From positions 1 through 64,000 of the forward strand of contig JAFIFY010000183.1 of NCBI GenBank assembly GCA_020831765.1: a stretch of DNA of 64,000 bases, read 5' to 3'. Made by a program: the position numbers and the translations under genes. Source of the DNA: Phycisphaeraceae bacterium (lineage in GTDB: Bacteria > Planctomycetota > Phycisphaerae > Phycisphaerales > Phycisphaeraceae). Below are positions 36 to 6,745 of this stretch, piece by piece (the stretch's first letter is position 1; every line of letters starts with the position of its first letter). The notes under the pieces were generated by a model. That model saw only the letters and a list, made by a program, of their open reading frames with translations, did no database searches and had not been told where the DNA came from.

Positions 36-359
36 TCATGGTGGCGTACTCCTGCCCGCGTGGGCGGTTGGGGGGTTTACAGCAACCCCAAGGTACGCCG
101 CCTTTTTCAATTCGTCATCCACAACTTTGGGGTATATCTCCTGGCTCTTGAGGTATTTCTCAAAGGCAACGGCCTTGGCCTTTTCGCGGAATGCCACGGC
201 CGATTCGATCCGCCAAGGCGCAAACTTTAATGTATGCGGGACTTTGAGGGCGTTGTTGGCCTTGAGGCGAGCGGCAAGGTTTCCGGTCATCCCGACGTAC
301 CAGTGTCCGGGCGGGTCGATGCTTTGGAGCATGTACACGTACCAGAATTGGCCATCCAT
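36..359 (-). CDS. GIY-YIG nuclease family protein
   Basis: A 107-residue protein of the small GIY-YIG (UvrC N-terminal-like) family, often annotated as a predicted endonuclease containing only the nuclease domain. The GIY half is seen as YVYMLQS (residues 7-13) and the YIG half as YVG (about 21-23). A downstream Arg (AARLKA) and the EKYLKS segment near 66-71 also fit the family. Its substrate is not known. The ATG at 359 begins MDGQFWYVYM. It lies on the chromosomal side of the left attachment repeat, so it belongs to the host and not to the integrated element. The last 15-20 residues are low complexity and may not be part of the fold. Confidence 0.8.
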   Translation of the reverse strand: MDGQFWYVYMLQSIDPPGHWYVGMTGNLAARLKANNALKVPHTLKFAPWRIESAVAFREKAKAVAFEKYLKSQEIYPKVVDDELKKAAYLGVAVNPPTAHAGRSTPP

Positions 360-443: not shown

Positions 444-488
444 CAGTCTTGGTTCGCCGCGAGACAGATTCGCGGCGAACGAAGACTG
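444..488 (-). terminator. Hairpin next to left att repeat; probable original tRNA-Ala terminator
   Basis: A long inverted repeat pairs 444-450 with 482-488 and 453-462 with 470-479, separated by a 2-nt mismatch and a 7-nt loop. It overlaps the first bases of the left attachment repeat. If the element were removed, this hairpin would lie directly after the 3' end of the minus-strand tRNA-Ala, where a processing or termination structure is expected. There is no clear T-tract, so the terminator role is inferred from position. Confidence 0.45.
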
Positions 489-512
489 GAGCGGAGGGGG
501 CTCGAACCCCTA
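484..512. repeat. Left attachment repeat (displaced tRNA-Ala 3' end)
   Basis: Identical over 29 bases to 6670-6698. It starts 3 bases beyond the tRNA 3' end and runs through the acceptor 3' strand and T-arm. After 512 it departs from the tRNA sequence, so no complete tRNA is present here. Confidence 0.9.
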
Positions 513-726
513 TTCACCTGTTGAAATCATTGAGAAAGCGGGGGTTTTGGGTGGGCGCGCTGCGGATTGCGCTGCAGGGGGCGCTGCTTCGGGTGGGGTT
601 GTGGAGGCCGAAGGGGAGCGGGTGGGGCTGGAAAAGCGGCTGCTTGTCCAGCGGTGGGACCGGCTTCCCGAGGCGGTACGCTTGGCCATCCTGGAGCAGG
701 TCATCTCGGCCACGGAGGACCGCTGA
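511..726 (+). other. Displaced 3' coding segment of the element integrase
   Basis: Reading on from the left repeat in the frame used by the integrase at the right repeat gives 71 sense codons ending at the TGA at 724-726. The sequence starts YSPVEIIEKAGVLGG and ends WDRLPEAVRLAILEQV then ISATEDR, an amphipathic helix-like tail of a kind I recall from planctomycete phage integrases. It has no start codon of its own. In the circular form it would be joined in frame to the integrase gene after Pro439. In the integrated chromosome it is an orphan 3' end with no visible means of translation. Confidence 0.7.
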
Positions 727-825
727 CCGGGCACCTGGGGACCGCAGCGCTTTATGATGAGCCAACCACACGCCGACGGGCCACCTTCCGGCCATCGCCG
801 GCCAACACATCACAGGGAGCATGTC

Positions 826-1068
826 ATGGCGAAGATCACACGGACGGACCATCCACCGCAGCCGGGGCCGGGAACGGCTCGAACGAGCCCCCCTTCGGAT
901 GCCGGGGGGAACGAGGCGGCGATGCTGGCACGGATCGAAAAGCACGCGGCGGAGGCGGCCAAGGCAGCGCGCCAATCCGAGCGGCATCTGGCGGGGATTC
1001 GGTTTCTCATGCTGGTGATGCCGCTTGCGCTGATCGTGGTGCTGGCGGTGATGATGGCTTCGCAGTAG
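826..1068 (+). CDS. Small single-pass membrane protein of the element
   Basis: An 80-residue protein of unknown function. Residues 1-30 are polar and Pro/Gly rich. Residues 31-56 form an Ala/Glu/Arg-rich helix (AAMLARIEKHAAEAAKAARQ), and residues 59-77 form a hydrophobic segment (FLMLVMPLALIVVLAVMMA) ending in SQ, so it is probably tail-anchored. The ATG at 826 follows an AGGGAG ribosome site. A start at 754 in the same frame would add a less convincing leader. It is the first gene after the left end of the element. A holin-like or surface role is possible but not shown. Confidence 0.6.
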   Translation: MAKITRTDHPPQPGPGTARTSPPSDAGGNEAAMLARIEKHAAEAAKAARQSERHLAGIRFLMLVMPLALIVVLAVMMASQ

Positions 1069-1615
1069 CGATCAGGGCACCGATCACATTCTGAGAAGGC
1101 GGCTCGGGTCCTCCGGAAGAGGGTTCCATGATCCCCCCGACGGAAGAAAATCAGGGCGCAAGGTAGTGTTTGCTTTACGCCTAAGGTACTCCGGAACGAC
1201 CTGTCCATCCGCTGATGCAAAGGGGGCCAGCGGGGCTTATTTGATTCGGACTCGGCCGCTGCCGGGGAAAACATTACCGCGCGCGGCTGATCCTCCCTTG
1301 CCAAGGTGGGCACCGGCTCGGCCAGGAGGACCCGGCGGGCATCGTGAGCCGGGATAACGGGCCGGTGGACGGCAGCGCTGGGTGAGGGCATCGACGGCCA
1401 TTTTTCGCTACGCCGAAACCATCGCGCGCCGGGGCTGATGGTGCGGGGTTCCGCTTGCTCGACCGATCCATCCGGCCAGGGGCGAAGCCGTGGAGCCGGC
1501 GGTAAAATGGCGATGCGGCAGCCCGGCCAGGCTGAAGAGGCTCGGGAGCCTACCCCGGCAATCGTCCCGCCAGGATGGCTCCCGAGTCGTCCCGCATCTC
1601 TCCAGGGACGAACCG
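1069..1615. other. 547-bp region without a convincing gene; contains a 10-bp inverted repeat
   Basis: No open frame here has a ribosome site or protein-like composition. The clearest structure is a perfect inverted repeat, CTCGGGAGCC at 1541-1550 and GGCTCCCGAG at 1577-1586, with a 26-base loop, about 30 bases before the next gene. It could be an operator or an mRNA leader hairpin. Confidence 0.5.
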
Positions 1616-2353
1616 ATGACCGACGGTTGCGACGATGACATCACCGATGCCGAGGTGATGCTAGTTCTGGCGGCGGAGTTCGAGCAGTTCGCATCGGCCG
1701 GGCTCGACGACTGCGAGAAGATTGATGAATTGAGGCTGGAGACAGGGGAGTTTCTGGTTCGTCTTGGGTTTCTCCCATCGAAGTGGAAAGACTGGAGCAG
1801 TTCCCGCCATCTCCCGATGATCTGGGACGACATCATCGACTCGATCGTGGAAAAGCATCCATCGGTTCATCATGAGAATGATCTGATCACGCAGGCAAAC
1901 GCTTGCCGGCATATCGCGGAATTTCTCGAACCGGGGATCATCTCGGCAAACAAGCGGGAGATGGGTCCATCATCTGATCCCGCAATGGCCAAGACAGCAT
2001 CGTCTGAGGCACCGGCCGAAGATTCAACGCCAGCGGATGCCAACGGCGATGCACCACAGGCCGACGGCGCAAGGGTGCCAAGCAAGCCCGATCCCTTCAT
2101 GCCGGCGGCATGGTTCAAGAGTCCCTTGAGGCACGACCGCTACCTGCGTCAATTGTCTGACGCCGTCAAGGCCAAGACGCCATCCAAGCGGATCAGGCGT
2201 CGGGGTGAGAAGGGGGCATATCTCTACTCGGTACGGGATGCGATGCGAGCTTGGCCGGATAAAGTGGCACTTCAAAAGGCAGGCCGTGAGGCGATCGAGG
2301 AATCCAAGGCATCGACCACGAGCGTAGACCGTTCGCGGGAGAGTCCGAAATAG
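1616..2353 (+). CDS. Hypothetical protein of the element
   Basis: A 245-residue protein I do not recognise. The N-terminal 110 residues are acidic and helical. Residues 115-155 are a disordered Ala/Pro/Asp-rich linker. The C-terminal part has a basic motif (KRIRRRGEKGAYLYSV, about 201-216) followed by DAMRAWP, resembling the wing of small winged-helix or excisionase-like DNA-binding domains. The ATG at 1616 follows an AGGGA site at about 8 bases; an in-frame upstream extension to 1490 lacks one. The stop codon lies inside the first copy of the phased repeat array. A DNA-binding accessory role is only a guess. Confidence 0.6.
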   Translation: MTDGCDDDITDAEVMLVLAAEFEQFASAGLDDCEKIDELRLETGEFLVRLGFLPSKWKDWSSSRHLPMIWDDIIDSIVEKHPSVHHENDLITQANACRHIAEFLEPGIISANKREMGPSSDPAMAKTASSEAPAEDSTPADANGDAPQADGARVPSKPDPFMPAAWFKSPLRHDRYLRQLSDAVKAKTPSKRIRRRGEKGAYLYSVRDAMRAWPDKVALQKAGREAIEESKASTTSVDRSRESPK

Positions 2354-2411
2354 TCCGAAATAGTCCGAAATCTATCCGATTTTGACTCCGATTCCATCCG
2401 AAACCATCCGG
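2344..2411. repeat. Helically phased TCCG array (candidate iterons)
   Basis: Seven TCCG cores start at 2344, 2354, 2364, 2375, 2387, 2397 and 2407, so spacings are 10, 10, 11, 12, 10 and 10 bases. The first three are exact 10-bp tandem copies (TAGTCCGAAA); the later ones appear as ATCCGA, CTCCGA, ATCCGA and ATCCGG. The array sits between the unknown gene and the excisionase-like/replication operon. Phased short repeats are typical of replication initiator or excisionase binding sites. Confidence 0.65.
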
Positions 2412-2562
2412 TGCATGCCCTGATCGCGGTTTCTTGCGGTCGGGCGCTGCTATCTCATGGCTCAGCGACTGCGATTCGACCGCGCATCCTGCTTTCAAGG
2501 GCCAAGTGGATGGTCCGGCACGGTGCGCGGCCGGTCGCAGCGCTGACCCGGAGATTTGAATC

Positions 2563-2802
2563 ATGGACGACACTTCCAAGGGGCCGGAGCGGCCGACATT
2601 TCACGATGCCTCAGATGCAGCCCAGTTGCTCGGGGTGACAAGGTCATGGTTGATCGAGAAAGCCAAGGCGGGAGTGATTCCAGCGCTGAAGGTCAACCAG
2701 CACTACCGCTTTCACGTTCCGACGTTGGAGCAGGCACTGCTCCAACGCCAGCGAGAGACGATTCAAGAGCGCCCGGCGGGTGCCGAGGAGGCGAGCCGAT
2801 GA
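2563..2802 (+). CDS. Excisionase/MerR-type helix-turn-helix protein
   Basis: A 79-residue protein with a small winged helix-turn-helix domain of the excisionase (Xis/AlpA-like) kind. The pattern DAAQLLGVTRSWLIEKAKAG (about 18-37) is the helix-turn-helix, and VIPALKVNQHYRFHVPTLEQ is the wing and following helix. It probably binds DNA near the attachment sites or the repeat array to direct excision or to regulate the operon. The ATG at 2563 has a GGAG site upstream. Its stop overlaps the next start (ATGA), so the two genes are translationally coupled. Confidence 0.8.
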   Translation: MDDTSKGPERPTFHDASDAAQLLGVTRSWLIEKAKAGVIPALKVNQHYRFHVPTLEQALLQRQRETIQERPAGAEEASR

Positions 2803-3206
2803 TTCAGCGACCATCCCGCCAGAATGTCCACCACGGCCAGGAGATCACCACCGGGCCGACATCACCACCGGCGGCTCCATCGGCTGGCCAGACGGCCGGG
2901 AGCGGTTCCAGGGGCACTTCCCGGGGCTCCGGGGGTTCCGGCACTTCCGGCACTTCCGGCAATTCCGGGGGTGGTTCCGGGGGATCGCATCCGGAGCTTG
3001 AGTTGTTGACGCAGGATGATGCTTCGCGGCTTCTGAAGATCAGCCGGCGGCAGGTTCAGATCGAGATCGCCGAGGGCCGGCTGCCGGCGGTGCGGATCGG
3101 TCGTCGGTGTCTGCTAAGGCCGATCGACTTGTCCAACTTCATCTCGGCCAGGCTCCGACGCGAGCGCAGCCAGGGACAGGCTCCAGGCCGGGAGGGGCAG
3201 GCATGA
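2799..3206 (+). CDS. Excisionase-type HTH protein with Gly/Ser-rich N-terminus
   Basis: A 135-residue protein in two parts. Residues 1-65 are low complexity, with Gly-Ser runs encoded by a TTCCGGGG/ACTTCCGG repeat at 2904-2982. Residues 68-120 form a second excisionase-like winged helix: LTQDDASRLLKISRRQVQIE, then RLPAVRIGRRCLLRPIDLSN. It overlaps the genes on both sides by ATGA. Having two related HTH proteins in tandem suggests an excisionase plus a repressor, or one origin-binding protein; the sequence does not decide which. The flexible linker looks like a recent repeat expansion. Confidence 0.75.
   Translation: MIQRPSRQNVHHGQEITTGPTSPPAAPSAGQTAGSGSRGTSRGSGGSGTSGTSGNSGGGSGGSHPELELLTQDDASRLLKISRRQVQIEIAEGRLPAVRIGRRCLLRPIDLSNFISARLRRERSQGQAPGREGQA
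2904..2982. repeat. In-frame TTCCGGGG/ACTTCCGG repeat inside a coding region
   Basis: Short degenerate units (GGTTCCAGGGGCACTTCC, CTCCGGGGGTTCCGGC, then ACTTCCGGC twice) encode the Gly/Ser/Thr linker of the second HTH protein. The same core occurs at 5183-5236 and in intergenic spacers elsewhere in the window. Confidence 0.7.
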
Positions 3207-5251
3207 CCGGGACGGCCACCACCAACGGGACGAGCGCTGCGCAGGCTGATGCGATCCTGACAGCGCGGGGGCTGGAGCCGATCGACAGCCAGCGCGATGA
3301 GCGGGAAATCCTGGGCGCTGCGCTGCTGGACTTGAGGGCCTATCGGGCGATCCGGGGCCTGGGCATCACCGCTTCGATGTTCAGTGATTCAGCGCACGCG
3401 GCCATCTGGCGCAGCATCCACAAGGCCGAGCGTGAGCTGGGCGAGGGCGCTGAGGACATCGCCGACGATCCGGAAAAGGGCATGAGATCGCGGTGGATCG
3501 AACACTGCCAGCGCGCTGTTCAGGCGATCATGAAGGTCACTGCTCAAGAGGCTCGCACGCTATGCCTTGGCTTTGCTGAACTGGTCGTGTCGCCGGCATC
3601 CGTAGTCAGGATCGCAGCGCCGGGTTTGCTCGAAGCGCATCGCCGGCGTGAGGAACTTCTGGCGGCTCATGCCGCGATGGAGGCCGCGCTTGAAGATCGG
3701 CCGACGGAGAACGCAGCGCTGCGCCTGATGAGTCTGGAACGGCCGTTGAAACGGGATCGGACGGCCGCGCCGAAGCGCCGGGGGTTTCCCGTGGATCAAC
3801 TTCCGGCGGGTGTGGCTCGTTTCGTTTCGGAGATGACTTCGGCGCTGGGCCTGGAAGATGCGAGCTTCACGGCGGTCGCATGCCTGGGTGTTGTGGCCGG
3901 GGCGTGTGGCGGTCGATGGTCAGTGACGATCAAGCGGGGATACACGGTCCCGCTGACGTTGTGGGTGGGGCTCGTGGGCGAATCGGGCTCGAAGAAATCG
4001 CCAGCGCTGGAGGCGTGCCTGAAACCGCTGCGCGATATTCAGAGTCGGCACTGGGCGGCTCACCGCGAAGCACAGGCCACCTTCGAGCGGGAGCAGAAAT
4101 CCCGCCGGCGGTCCCGGGATGCGGCGATGGATGCATCGGTCGAACCCGAAGCGCCGATCGCGTGGCGCTGTCTGGCCGACGATGCCACGGTGGAGGCTTT
4201 GGGCCGCATCCTCCAGGACAATGCGCACGGTGTGCTGATCGCAGCCGATGAACTGGGCGGCTTTTTGATGGGGTTGGGCCGATACACCAACGCCAGGGGC
4301 GCGGATGAAGGCCGGATGCTCGGCTGCTTCGATGGCAGCGCATTGACCGTGGATCGCAAGGGCGATGGGACGGTCCATATCCCCCGGGCTTGCGTTTCGA
4401 TTCTCGGGGGCATCCAGCCGGGCACGCTGACAAGGGCTTTCGGGCCGGCACAGCGGGATGGTGGGATGTTGGCGCGGTTTCTTCTGGTTCATCCGCCTGA
4501 TCGAGCCGGGCGGTGGTCGGATGCCGAGCCATCCATCAAGGCGATCGAGGGCTGGGCGCTGACCATCGAGGCTCTGGCCGGGATCGCGTGCGATGGTGAT
4601 GAGCAGGACCGACCGATGCCGCATCGCCTGGAACTGGAGCCCGAAGCGCGGGAGATGCTGGCACGCTTCCATGATGAGATCGCGGTGGTGATGGATGCCA
4701 CCGACGATGGCCACCTTCGGTCCCACCTGAGCAAGCTGCGCGGCGGGATCGTGCCTCGACTGGCGGGGCTGCTTCACTTGATCGGCGTGGTGGAGCGTGG
4801 CGGCGATCCTCTGGCACCGGAGGCACGGACCATCACGGCGGCGACGATGAGCGCGGCGGTGGAAATCGGCCGCTGGTTTCGAGCCGAGGCCGAGTTGATC
4901 TATGGGCGTTTTCACGAGCCGGAGCAGGAGGCGCTGGAGCGCTCTCTGGTTGAATACATCCAGCGCCAGGAGGGAGGACGCATCACCGCGCGCGGCCTCC
5001 ATCGCGGCATGAGCAAGCGGTTTAAGAACACGGAGCAGGCCGATCGTGCGCTGCGGGAGCTGGCCAAGGCCGGCCGGGGCCGTTTCGAGATGGTCCAGGG
5101 CAAGACCGGCAGGCCGGCCACGTGGTTCATCCTCAAGGATGAGAACCCGGAGATGGCCGGCGAGGGTGACGATACGGGCGAAGGTTCCGGGGGTTCCGGG
5201 GGTGGCTCCGGGGGTTCCGGGGGTTCCGGGGGTGGTGAAACTTCACGCTGA
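3203..5251 (+). CDS. DnaB-N/DUF3987 replication-like protein
   Basis: A 682-residue protein, probably the replication protein of the element. Residues 33-75 (REILGAALLDLRAYRAI...) resemble the N-terminal domain of replicative helicase DnaB. Residues 195-560 match the DUF3987 (YfjI-like) family, a P-loop-type domain in phage and island replication genes, with a Walker A-like GESGSKKS at 259-266 and a Walker B-like VLIAADE at 344-350. The C-terminal 90 residues look like a winged helix followed by a Gly-Gly-Ser tail encoded by the TTCCGGGGG repeat. The ATG overlaps the previous stop. A strong terminator follows. Primase or helicase activity is inferred. Confidence 0.8.
   Translation: MTGTATTNGTSAAQADAILTARGLEPIDSQRDEREILGAALLDLRAYRAIRGLGITASMFSDSAHAAIWRSIHKAERELGEGAEDIADDPEKGMRSRWIEHCQRAVQAIMKVTAQEARTLCLGFAELVVSPASVVRIAAPGLLEAHRRREELLAAHAAMEAALEDRPTENAALRLMSLERPLKRDRTAAPKRRGFPVDQLPAGVARFVSEMTSALGLEDASFTAVACLGVVAGACGGRWSVTIKRGYTVPLTLWVGLVGESGSKKSPALEACLKPLRDIQSRHWAAHREAQATFEREQKSRRRSRDAAMDASVEPEAPIAWRCLADDATVEALGRILQDNAHGVLIAADELGGFLMGLGRYTNARGADEGRMLGCFDGSALTVDRKGDGTVHIPRACVSILGGIQPGTLTRAFGPAQRDGGMLARFLLVHPPDRAGRWSDAEPSIKAIEGWALTIEALAGIACDGDEQDRPMPHRLELEPEAREMLARFHDEIAVVMDATDDGHLRSHLSKLRGGIVPRLAGLLHLIGVVERGGDPLAPEARTITAATMSAAVEIGRWFRAEAELIYGRFHEPEQEALERSLVEYIQRQEGGRITARGLHRGMSKRFKNTEQADRALRELAKAGRGRFEMVQGKTGRPATWFILKDENPEMAGEGDDTGEGSGGSGGGSGGSGGSGGGETSR
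5183..5236. repeat. TTCCGGGGG repeat at the 3' end of the DUF3987 gene
   Basis: Tandem units of 9 and 12 bases (GGTTCCGGG, GGTGGCTCCGGG) encode the C-terminal Gly/Ser tail. It has the same core as the linker repeat at 2904-2982. Confidence 0.75.
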
Positions 5252-5266
5252 CACGATGACAGAAGC

Positions 5267-5309
5267 CAGAACCCCGAAAAAATCAGGGAAAATCGGGGTT
5301 CTGTCTTTT
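5267..5309 (+). terminator. Rho-independent terminator after the replication operon
   Basis: A perfect 11-bp stem pairs CAGAACCCCGA (5267-5277) with TCGGGGTTCTG (5293-5303) around a 15-nt A-rich loop, followed by TCTTTT. It separates the HTH/DUF3987 operon from the integrase gene. Confidence 0.8.
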
Positions 5310-5315
5310 GTCAAC

Positions 5316-5345
5316 TTGTCATGGCGAGAAATCGTTGGTTAGACT
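5316..5345 (+). promoter_or_regulatory. Candidate sigma70 promoter of the integrase
   Basis: TTGTCA (5316-5321), an 18-base spacer and TAGACT (5340-5345) lie just after the terminator and 34 bases before the integrase ATG. Both boxes differ from consensus, so this is moderate evidence. Confidence 0.45.
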
Positions 5346-5379
5346 TCGAGCGGCCACATTTGCATCAAGGGACGAAATC

Positions 5380-6699
5380 ATGGCGAGCATCACCACACGC
5401 AGGACCGGCTCCCGGGCGGTTCAGTTCACCGGCATTGATGGCAAGCGGAGGACGGTATCCCTGGGCAGGCTCCCAGCGCGCCAGGCTGCGGGCTGGCCGG
5501 GTCACATCGAGGCGATCCTTCAGGCTCAACGGTACGGTGGAGCCGTTCCCGATCAGACGGCGGCATGGATCACCGCGCTTGGGGATGAACAGCATGAGCG
5601 GCTGGCTCAGGCCGGGCTGCTGGTTTCGCGCAGGCCGACGATGCCGGCGATGGCCGAGCGTCTGGAGCGGCATCTGCGGGATCGTGAGCAGGCCGGGGAG
5701 ATCAAGCCATCGTCCATCGTGAAGCTGCGCCAGACGGCGGGGCTGCTGGTTGAACACTTCGGCCGGACTCAGCGCCTGGAGCGGATCACGCCGAAGATGG
5801 CTCGGGCCTGGAGCGTGTGGCTCGTTCGCGATCGAGGACTGAGCAAGGCAACGCAGCGCATTCACCACGGCAATGCACGGAGCATGTATCGGGCGGTGGC
5901 GGGCCGGCGGGCCGAGAACCCGTTCGAGGGGCTGCCGGCTCGAACCACGGCCAGCGACTATCGGCGCTTTGTCACCGAAGCGGAGATCGAGCGGGTCATC
6001 GAGCAGGCACCGACGGCCGAGTGGCGGCTGTTGCTGGGTCTGGCTCGATATGCGGGGCTTCGGTGTCCATCGGAGACGCATCTGCTGAGTGTGGGCGATA
6101 TCGACTTCGACCGCCGGCGTATGGTGGTTCGATCGCCCAAGACCGAACGGCATGAAGGGCACGAGAGCCGGCTCGTTCCGATCGACCCCCGGTTGCTTCG
6201 GTTGCTGCTGGATCGACTGGAGACGATGGAGCCGGGCGAGGACAGGCTTATCTCCGGTCTGGGTGTTCAGAGTTCCAGGGAGCGGAGCATCCGGCGATTC
6301 TGCTTGCGGGCCGGCGTGGAGCCGTGGCTCCGAGCGTGGCAGACGTTGCGATCCTCAGCCGAGATCGACTGGGCGCAGCGGTTCCCGCAGTTCGCGGTGT
6401 CGCGTTGGATCGGTCATTCGATGCAGATCAGCGAGCGGCACTACGCCAACCATGTACCGGATGAAATCTTCGACCGGGCAACGGGCGTGCCTGATCCGGC
6501 CAAGGCGGCACCGAAGCCGAGCCGCGCGCTGCAGAATGCGCTGCAACGGGTGCGCGCAGCGGGGCGCAGCGACGCAAACCGGGATGAACAGGGCATAAAT
6601 CGCAAATCCGATAAGGAATTACTATTCGAGGACTTGCGCCCTGATGCGCGTACCTTCGGGCCTATCACGGACTGGAGCGGAGGGGGCTCGAACCCCTAA
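5380..6699 (+). CDS. Tyrosine integrase of the tRNA-Ala element
   Basis: A 439-residue tyrosine recombinase. The N-terminus (MASITTRRTGSRAVQFTGID) matches the style of planctomycete phage integrases. A SAM-like core-binding domain spans about 85-180 and the catalytic domain about 195-365. The visible catalytic residues are Arg228 (AGLRCPSE), Lys254 (SPKTER), Arg324 (WQTLRSS, with Gln in the usual first His position), His346 (WIGHS) and Tyr355 (ERHYANH). The ATG at 5380 follows AAGGGA; in-frame upstream codons lack a ribosome site. Codons 431-439 (DWSGGGSNP) are exactly the attachment repeat, and the TAA uses the first base past it. In the circle the frame would continue for 71 codons. Confidence 0.9.
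   Translation: MASITTRRTGSRAVQFTGIDGKRRTVSLGRLPARQAAGWPGHIEAILQAQRYGGAVPDQTAAWITALGDEQHERLAQAGLLVSRRPTMPAMAERLERHLRDREQAGEIKPSSIVKLRQTAGLLVEHFGRTQRLERITPKMARAWSVWLVRDRGLSKATQRIHHGNARSMYRAVAGRRAENPFEGLPARTTASDYRRFVTEAEIERVIEQAPTAEWRLLLGLARYAGLRCPSETHLLSVGDIDFDRRRMVVRSPKTERHEGHESRLVPIDPRLLRLLLDRLETMEPGEDRLISGLGVQSSRERSIRRFCLRAGVEPWLRAWQTLRSSAEIDWAQRFPQFAVSRWIGHSMQISERHYANHVPDEIFDRATGVPDPAKAAPKPSRALQNALQRVRAAGRSDANRDEQGINRKSDKELLFEDLRPDARTFGPITDWSGGGSNP
6670..6698. repeat. Right attachment repeat inside intact tRNA-Ala
   Basis: Identical to 484-512. It covers the 3' end of tRNA-Ala and encodes the last nine residues of the integrase. Confidence 0.9.
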
Positions 6700-6745
6700 C
6701 CCCGGCCTTGCAAAGGCCGTGCTCTCCCAATTGAGCTACCGCCCC
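6673..6745 (-). tRNA. tRNA-Ala(UGC)
   Basis: A 73-nt cloverleaf on the minus strand. The acceptor pairs GGGGCGG with CCGCTCC. The D-arm is GCTC...GAGC. The anticodon stem is CGGCC/GGCCG with loop TTTGCAA, giving anticodon TGC. The T-arm is AGGGG TTCGAGC CCCCT, and the discriminator is A. No CCA is encoded. Its 3' part serves as the attachment site of the integrated element. Confidence 0.95.

Follow-up and report, generated by a model that had tools for sequence, protein, structure and literature searches.

The tyrosine integrase gene at positions 5380-6699 (plus strand) of the window carries the attP core inside its coding sequence, and the C-terminus of the enzyme is replaced on integration, as in the Mx8-type self-modifying integrases. 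The window is the 64,000 bp stretch of Phycisphaeraceae bacterium contig JAFIFY010000183.1 analyzed here. The same anatomy recurs throughout a family of related integrases, the tail which is lost is conserved, and the full-length form is carried by free circles of relatives. The first-pass annotation had proposed that integration swaps a coherent C-terminal tail for an immediate stop, and this was strongly supported by homologues, free circular forms and codon-level conservation. The swap itself is established for Mx8; we regard the planctomycete case as a new, family-wide variant of it.

The integrase belongs to a 6.2 kb element (484-6698) bounded by a 29 bp direct repeat, GACTGGAGCGGAGGGGGCTCGAACCCCTA, with positions 484-512 identical to 6670-6698. 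This sequence corresponds to the 3' end of tRNA-Ala(TGC), an identity that was not named in the first-pass annotation. ARAGORN and the repeat match placed the intact tRNA, the integration target, at 6673-6745 (minus strand) and a displaced 29 bp 3' fragment of the same tRNA at 484-512, which is the att copy on the tail side. The copy on the integrase side (6670-6698) is the attP core in the circle and encodes integrase codons 431-439 (DWSGGGSNP). The stop takes the first base past the repeat, the TAA lying at 6697-6699 with its final base just outside. Joining 6698 to 513 keeps the frame open for 71 added codons up to a TGA at 724-726. The repeat codons, the stop and the join had all been described earlier, and each was reproduced exactly. 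The orphaned tail, comprising codons 440-510 of the circular-form integrase and the TGA, is located at 511-726 (plus strand) by the in-frame join. A GIY-YIG protein is encoded just outside the element at 36-359 (minus strand), adjoining the displaced tRNA fragment.

The remaining genes of the element are all on the plus strand. A small ORF of 104 aa (754-1068) had no match in Pfam and an ORF of 287 aa (1490-2353) had none in Pfam or PHROG. Two HTH_17 proteins are encoded at 2563-2802 (PF12728, E 3e-7), a candidate excisionase or regulator, and at 2799-3206 (PF12728, E 5e-8). A DUF3987 protein at 3203-5251 resembles primase/helicase-like replication proteins (PF13148, E 4e-73; PHROG DNA helicase, E 2e-37). 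An HTH_17 gene and the DUF3987 gene have in common a repetitive Gly-Ser coding stretch of GGTTCCGG-like units, located at 2904-2986 and 5183-5240 respectively. No virion genes were recognized among the element proteins searched. The region 484-6698 may be a satellite or a small integrative element capable of its own replication.

The integrase enters tRNA-Ala from the opposite strand and stops inside the tRNA. The integrated short form is 439 aa while the predicted circle form is 510 aa. A Phage_integrase domain was detected (PF00589, E 2e-7), and R228, K254, R324, G345-H and Y355 were conserved in an 11-member alignment. Every conserved catalytic residue precedes att (residues 431-439) and the short form keeps them all. 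Judged from its sequence, the short form retains the catalytic, core-binding and arm-binding parts, and is altered rather than destroyed. An AlphaFold model of the relative L130, rather than of the window protein, had an N-terminal three-stranded sheet plus helix with a mean pLDDT of about 90-95, and its best PDB matches were 1z1b/1z1g, lambda integrase. The full-length L130 model continued with a disordered linker and then the tail. The window integrase had no match at 1e-5 among phage and plasmid records. Viral contigs in IMG/VR gave no matches when scanned with the single window protein, but an alignment query did find relatives there.

At the junctions of the 22 related elements for which both att copies were found, the joined frame was open for 41-92 codons in 22/22, compared to 4/22 and 4/22 for the other two frames. 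The repeat pairs of L043, L128, L135, L136 and L141 were judged spurious and were left out of the att counts. When the window was withheld from training, the tail HMM still put the window tail at the top of the 203 six-frame ORFs (E 1.1e-6; next-best ORF 0.0067). Leave-one-out HMMs placed 24 of the 27 tails at the top of their own locus. Of the 50,261 ORFs of all loci, 38 matched the tail HMM at E<1e-3, and every one of these lay on the same strand as the integrase. Sequences weakly resembling the tail in the window's own genome (L013-L016) were rejected as unrelated on inspection.

The shared part of the tail is a hairpin with the consensus DPxLxxLVxAWPxLPxxVRAxILAxV. AlphaFold modeled the window tail as a two-helix hairpin in the last ~38 residues, with a pLDDT of 91-97 in residues 41-70. 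The tail is not uniform, as the W..LP hairpin was absent from the tails of L099, L101, L103, L216, L222 and L110. No convincing match to the tail was found in Pfam or among PDB sequences. Differences between closely related tails were mostly at third positions. The pN/pS of such closely related tail pairs, which are not independent, was 0.52 in frame compared to 1.20 and 2.35 in the shifted frames; the window tail is without a close relative and these figures come from the tails of other elements. The first-pass annotation had suggested looking for the same tail in homologues and circular forms. The hairpin was shared by homologues, the full-length enzyme was present in circular contigs and the relatives' tails were conserved at codon level; neither a consistent lack of a similar tail nor a lack of codon-level conservation was encountered.

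The long integrase was carried by four IMG/VR contigs whose direct end repeats mark them as circular assemblies. It was contiguous in L132 (69 bp end repeat; 505 aa from its own ATG), in L118/G434 (44 bp) and in L134/G438 (80 bp), and spanned the contig ends in L122 (123 bp). Contiguous long forms were also present in L130/L133, L117 and L136, contigs without end repeats; the tail of L136 had a weak tail-HMM score (E 2.8). No tRNA was found on these long-form contigs in the stretches examined. As predicted, the integrase is long in free copies and mostly short in chromosomal ones, the circles being those of relatives.

Related loci were drawn from family and class genomes, IMG/VR and GTDB genomes. 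The GTDB records were nearly all labelled Planctomycetota, and the three with another label may be mis-binned. The window's genome encodes five paralogous integrases that are 31-36% identical. They adjoin the tRNA genes Val-TAC, Lys, Val-GAC, Asn and Glu, and all point into the 3' end and stop inside the tRNA. The second att copy was present for the Val-GAC element, and there too the join was open, with a 61-codon tail. This genome (G000; the window and L007-L011) holds six elements with one integrase family in six different tRNA genes. Of 147 non-redundant related integrases, 76 terminate within a tRNA or tmRNA gene, covering 22 RNA types, with 23 of the 76 in tmRNA. The rest comprised four which run through the RNA gene, two near one in another arrangement, 50 without an intact RNA gene and 15 which end with the contig.

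Short repeats flank the core on both sides. GCGCTGC recurs with a 12 bp period to the left of the core at 6526 and 6538 (6526-6544, plus strand, within the linker coding sequence) and in the tail coding sequence at 557, 569 and 581 (557-587, plus strand), and 16 of 18 bases are common to the left and tail copies. It was absent from the integrase body (5380-6470). Most copies of the family arm motif, GCnnnGCARAATSCGnnnGCA, were about 105-165 bp to the left of the core or 35-90 bp to its right. The motif reached at least 10 bits in 19/27 left and 18/27 right arms, compared to 5/145 integrase-body blocks and 11/950 blocks from the rest of the elements. Left and right copies were more alike within an element than between elements (0/20,000 permutations as good); this test took the wrong repeat for L009 and L204, an error which should weaken rather than favor the result. 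The two copies are usually in different codon phases, reading as AQNxAQ-like in the linker and GAESGA-like in the tail, which argues for selection on the DNA. The simplest reading is that the flanking repeats are probably arm-type integrase sites, putatively P in the linker and P' in the tail. New here are tandem 7-8 bp repeats on both sides of the core, inside coding sequence and usually in different frames. The integrase linkers of L117 and L118 contain more than one copy of the arm-type repeat peptide (AAQNAAH ... AAQNPAQ), which suggests a variable number of putative arm sites.

The closest precedent is the Myxococcus phage Mx8, which was absent from the first-pass annotation. According to reviews, integration of Mx8 replaces a 112-residue C-terminus of the integrase with 13 residues and the enzyme becomes less active (PMC4701971; also PMC6070905), and PMC6070905 describes a modified specificity of the Mx8 integrase. 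The original work on Mx8 Int/IntX is that of Tojo 1996 and Magrini 1999, cited here through these reviews. On that account both systems have a tyrosine integrase whose long C-terminus is swapped for a short one with the catalytic part intact. The two integrases are only remotely related, with no match by BLASTP and an hhalign probability of 70, and the planctomycete tail HMM gave no match to the tail of Mx8. Mx8 is a 49.5 kb phage whereas the window element is 6.2 kb without recognized virion genes, and the planctomycete trait spans a family that shares a tail and targets 22 types of RNA gene. The window integrase works like that of Mx8, to judge from these comparisons, and stands outside the Mx8 integrase subfamily.

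Other systems were less close. The first-pass annotation had likened the swap to the split integrases of SSV-type viruses. In those the gene is broken into Int(N) and Int(C), the latter catalytic, neither of which is considered active, and self-disrupting integrases are exclusively archaeal according to the same review (PMC8371274). The likeness holds for an attP within int and a tRNA target but fails for the separation of the catalytic domain, since the conserved residues of the window integrase all precede att and only the tail is lost, leaving the arm-binding, core-binding and catalytic regions intact; the analogy is loose. The comparison with integration-dependent mycobacteriophage repressors was sound as a principle. 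There too attP lies in a coding sequence and a stop formed at the junction truncates the C-terminus, but the altered protein is a repressor, not an integrase, and in many cases the part removed is a degradation tag resembling ssrA (PMC8092301, PMC4557955). Streptococcal ICEs in rumA likewise have the att site in the integrase gene, giving two C-termini, but with serine integrases and a protein-gene target (PMC4701971). That certain integrases reach across attP had already been pointed out by the Islander authors, who cited Mx8 and SSV (PMC4383910). No report of an integrase C-terminus swap in Planctomycetes was found in a literature search limited to open-licence papers.

Only a handful of cases, such as phage Mx8, had been known in which an integrase is modified by the reaction it catalyzes, and the trait was not known for a whole bacterial family. 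In this class of Planctomycetota it appears to be the usual condition of an integrase family, with many targets and a conserved tail domain unmatched in Pfam. Whenever such an element inserts into a tRNA or tmRNA gene, the enzyme loses a conserved C-terminal mini-domain.

The model we consider probable is that of a tRNA-Ala element with attP within its own integrase gene, a 510 aa circle form converted to 439 aa, and a long form which is the better integrator. The attP, core plus putative arm sites on both sides, would lie entirely within the 3' part of the gene. The free circle would encode the arm-binding, core-binding and catalytic domains, a flexible linker encoded by attP and the helical-hairpin tail. 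The long protein made from the circle would integrate the element into the 3' end of tRNA-Ala. Core recombination would strand the tail, together with one arm, at the opposite end of the element, and the tRNA would supply the stop that closes the short form. The two proteins may differ in function, and by analogy with Mx8 the long form would be better at integration, whereas the short form would have a lower activity or a bias in direction. In this way integration would down-regulate its own enzyme and help to lock the element in. The earlier suggestion that integration lowers or alters integrase activity or stability is plausible on this analogy. More tentatively, the tail following attP may be a dedicated sensor of integration state, with attP (core and both arms) doubling as the coding sequence of the flexible linker, and the hairpin may set direction, its loss being the main directionality switch beside any excisionase, in a large family of Planctomycetota phages and small elements. 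The long and short forms are at hand for a direct comparison of whether the record of integration in the enzyme's sequence sets the direction of recombination.

An inhibitory or partner-binding tail, which would restrain the long form or limit it to attP and leave the short form competent for excision, is less likely. In the models a folded hairpin on a flexible linker suits protein-protein contact, the short form retains every catalytic residue and the HTH_17 candidate excisionases lie within the element; the Mx8 precedent is the opposite, the prophage form being the less active one (PMC4701971). We think it improbable that the tail is an instability tag, giving a short-lived integrase from the circle and a stable one after integration. 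The geometry is that of the mycobacteriophage repressors, the gene containing attP and, once integrated, ending at a stop directly beyond the core (PMC8092301, PMC4557955), but conservation sits in the folded hairpin and not in the last residues. The tail ends are not ssrA-like (for example ATEDR, AAGER, IVRSD, TTTDR), and among the tails listed only that of L007 ends in GAA; an ssrA-like degron was judged unlikely from these ends. That the tail is kept only for a P' arm in its DNA, with an incidental open frame in GC-rich DNA, is largely refuted and very improbable: the arm motif does fall in tail DNA and some control frames are long, but the hairpin lies beyond the arm site, and the frame-specific openness, pN/pS and shared protein motif require translation. 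The reading in which the translated tail makes the long form the better integrator is preferred to all three.

Orphan tails were also searched for directly, using the tail only. The tail was present in 174/298 genomes of the class, at up to 12 copies per genome. Orphan tails were nearly always in a short frame, with three of more than 400 codons among the matches listed. A tRNA T-arm signature was found upstream in 22/29 orphan-tail loci compared to 4/202 control windows; this search used no integrase, and some of the 29 loci are elements already in the set. Orphan tails can serve as a marker for the far ends and remnants of such elements. Two cautions for annotation follow: integrases of this family read from chromosomes are without the C-terminus of the free form, and orphan tails resemble small hypothetical proteins beside tRNA fragments. 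In L076, L113, L176, L193 and L215 the integrase, att core and tail are adjacent in a genome contig and in different frames; these are apparently decayed copies in the circular arrangement.
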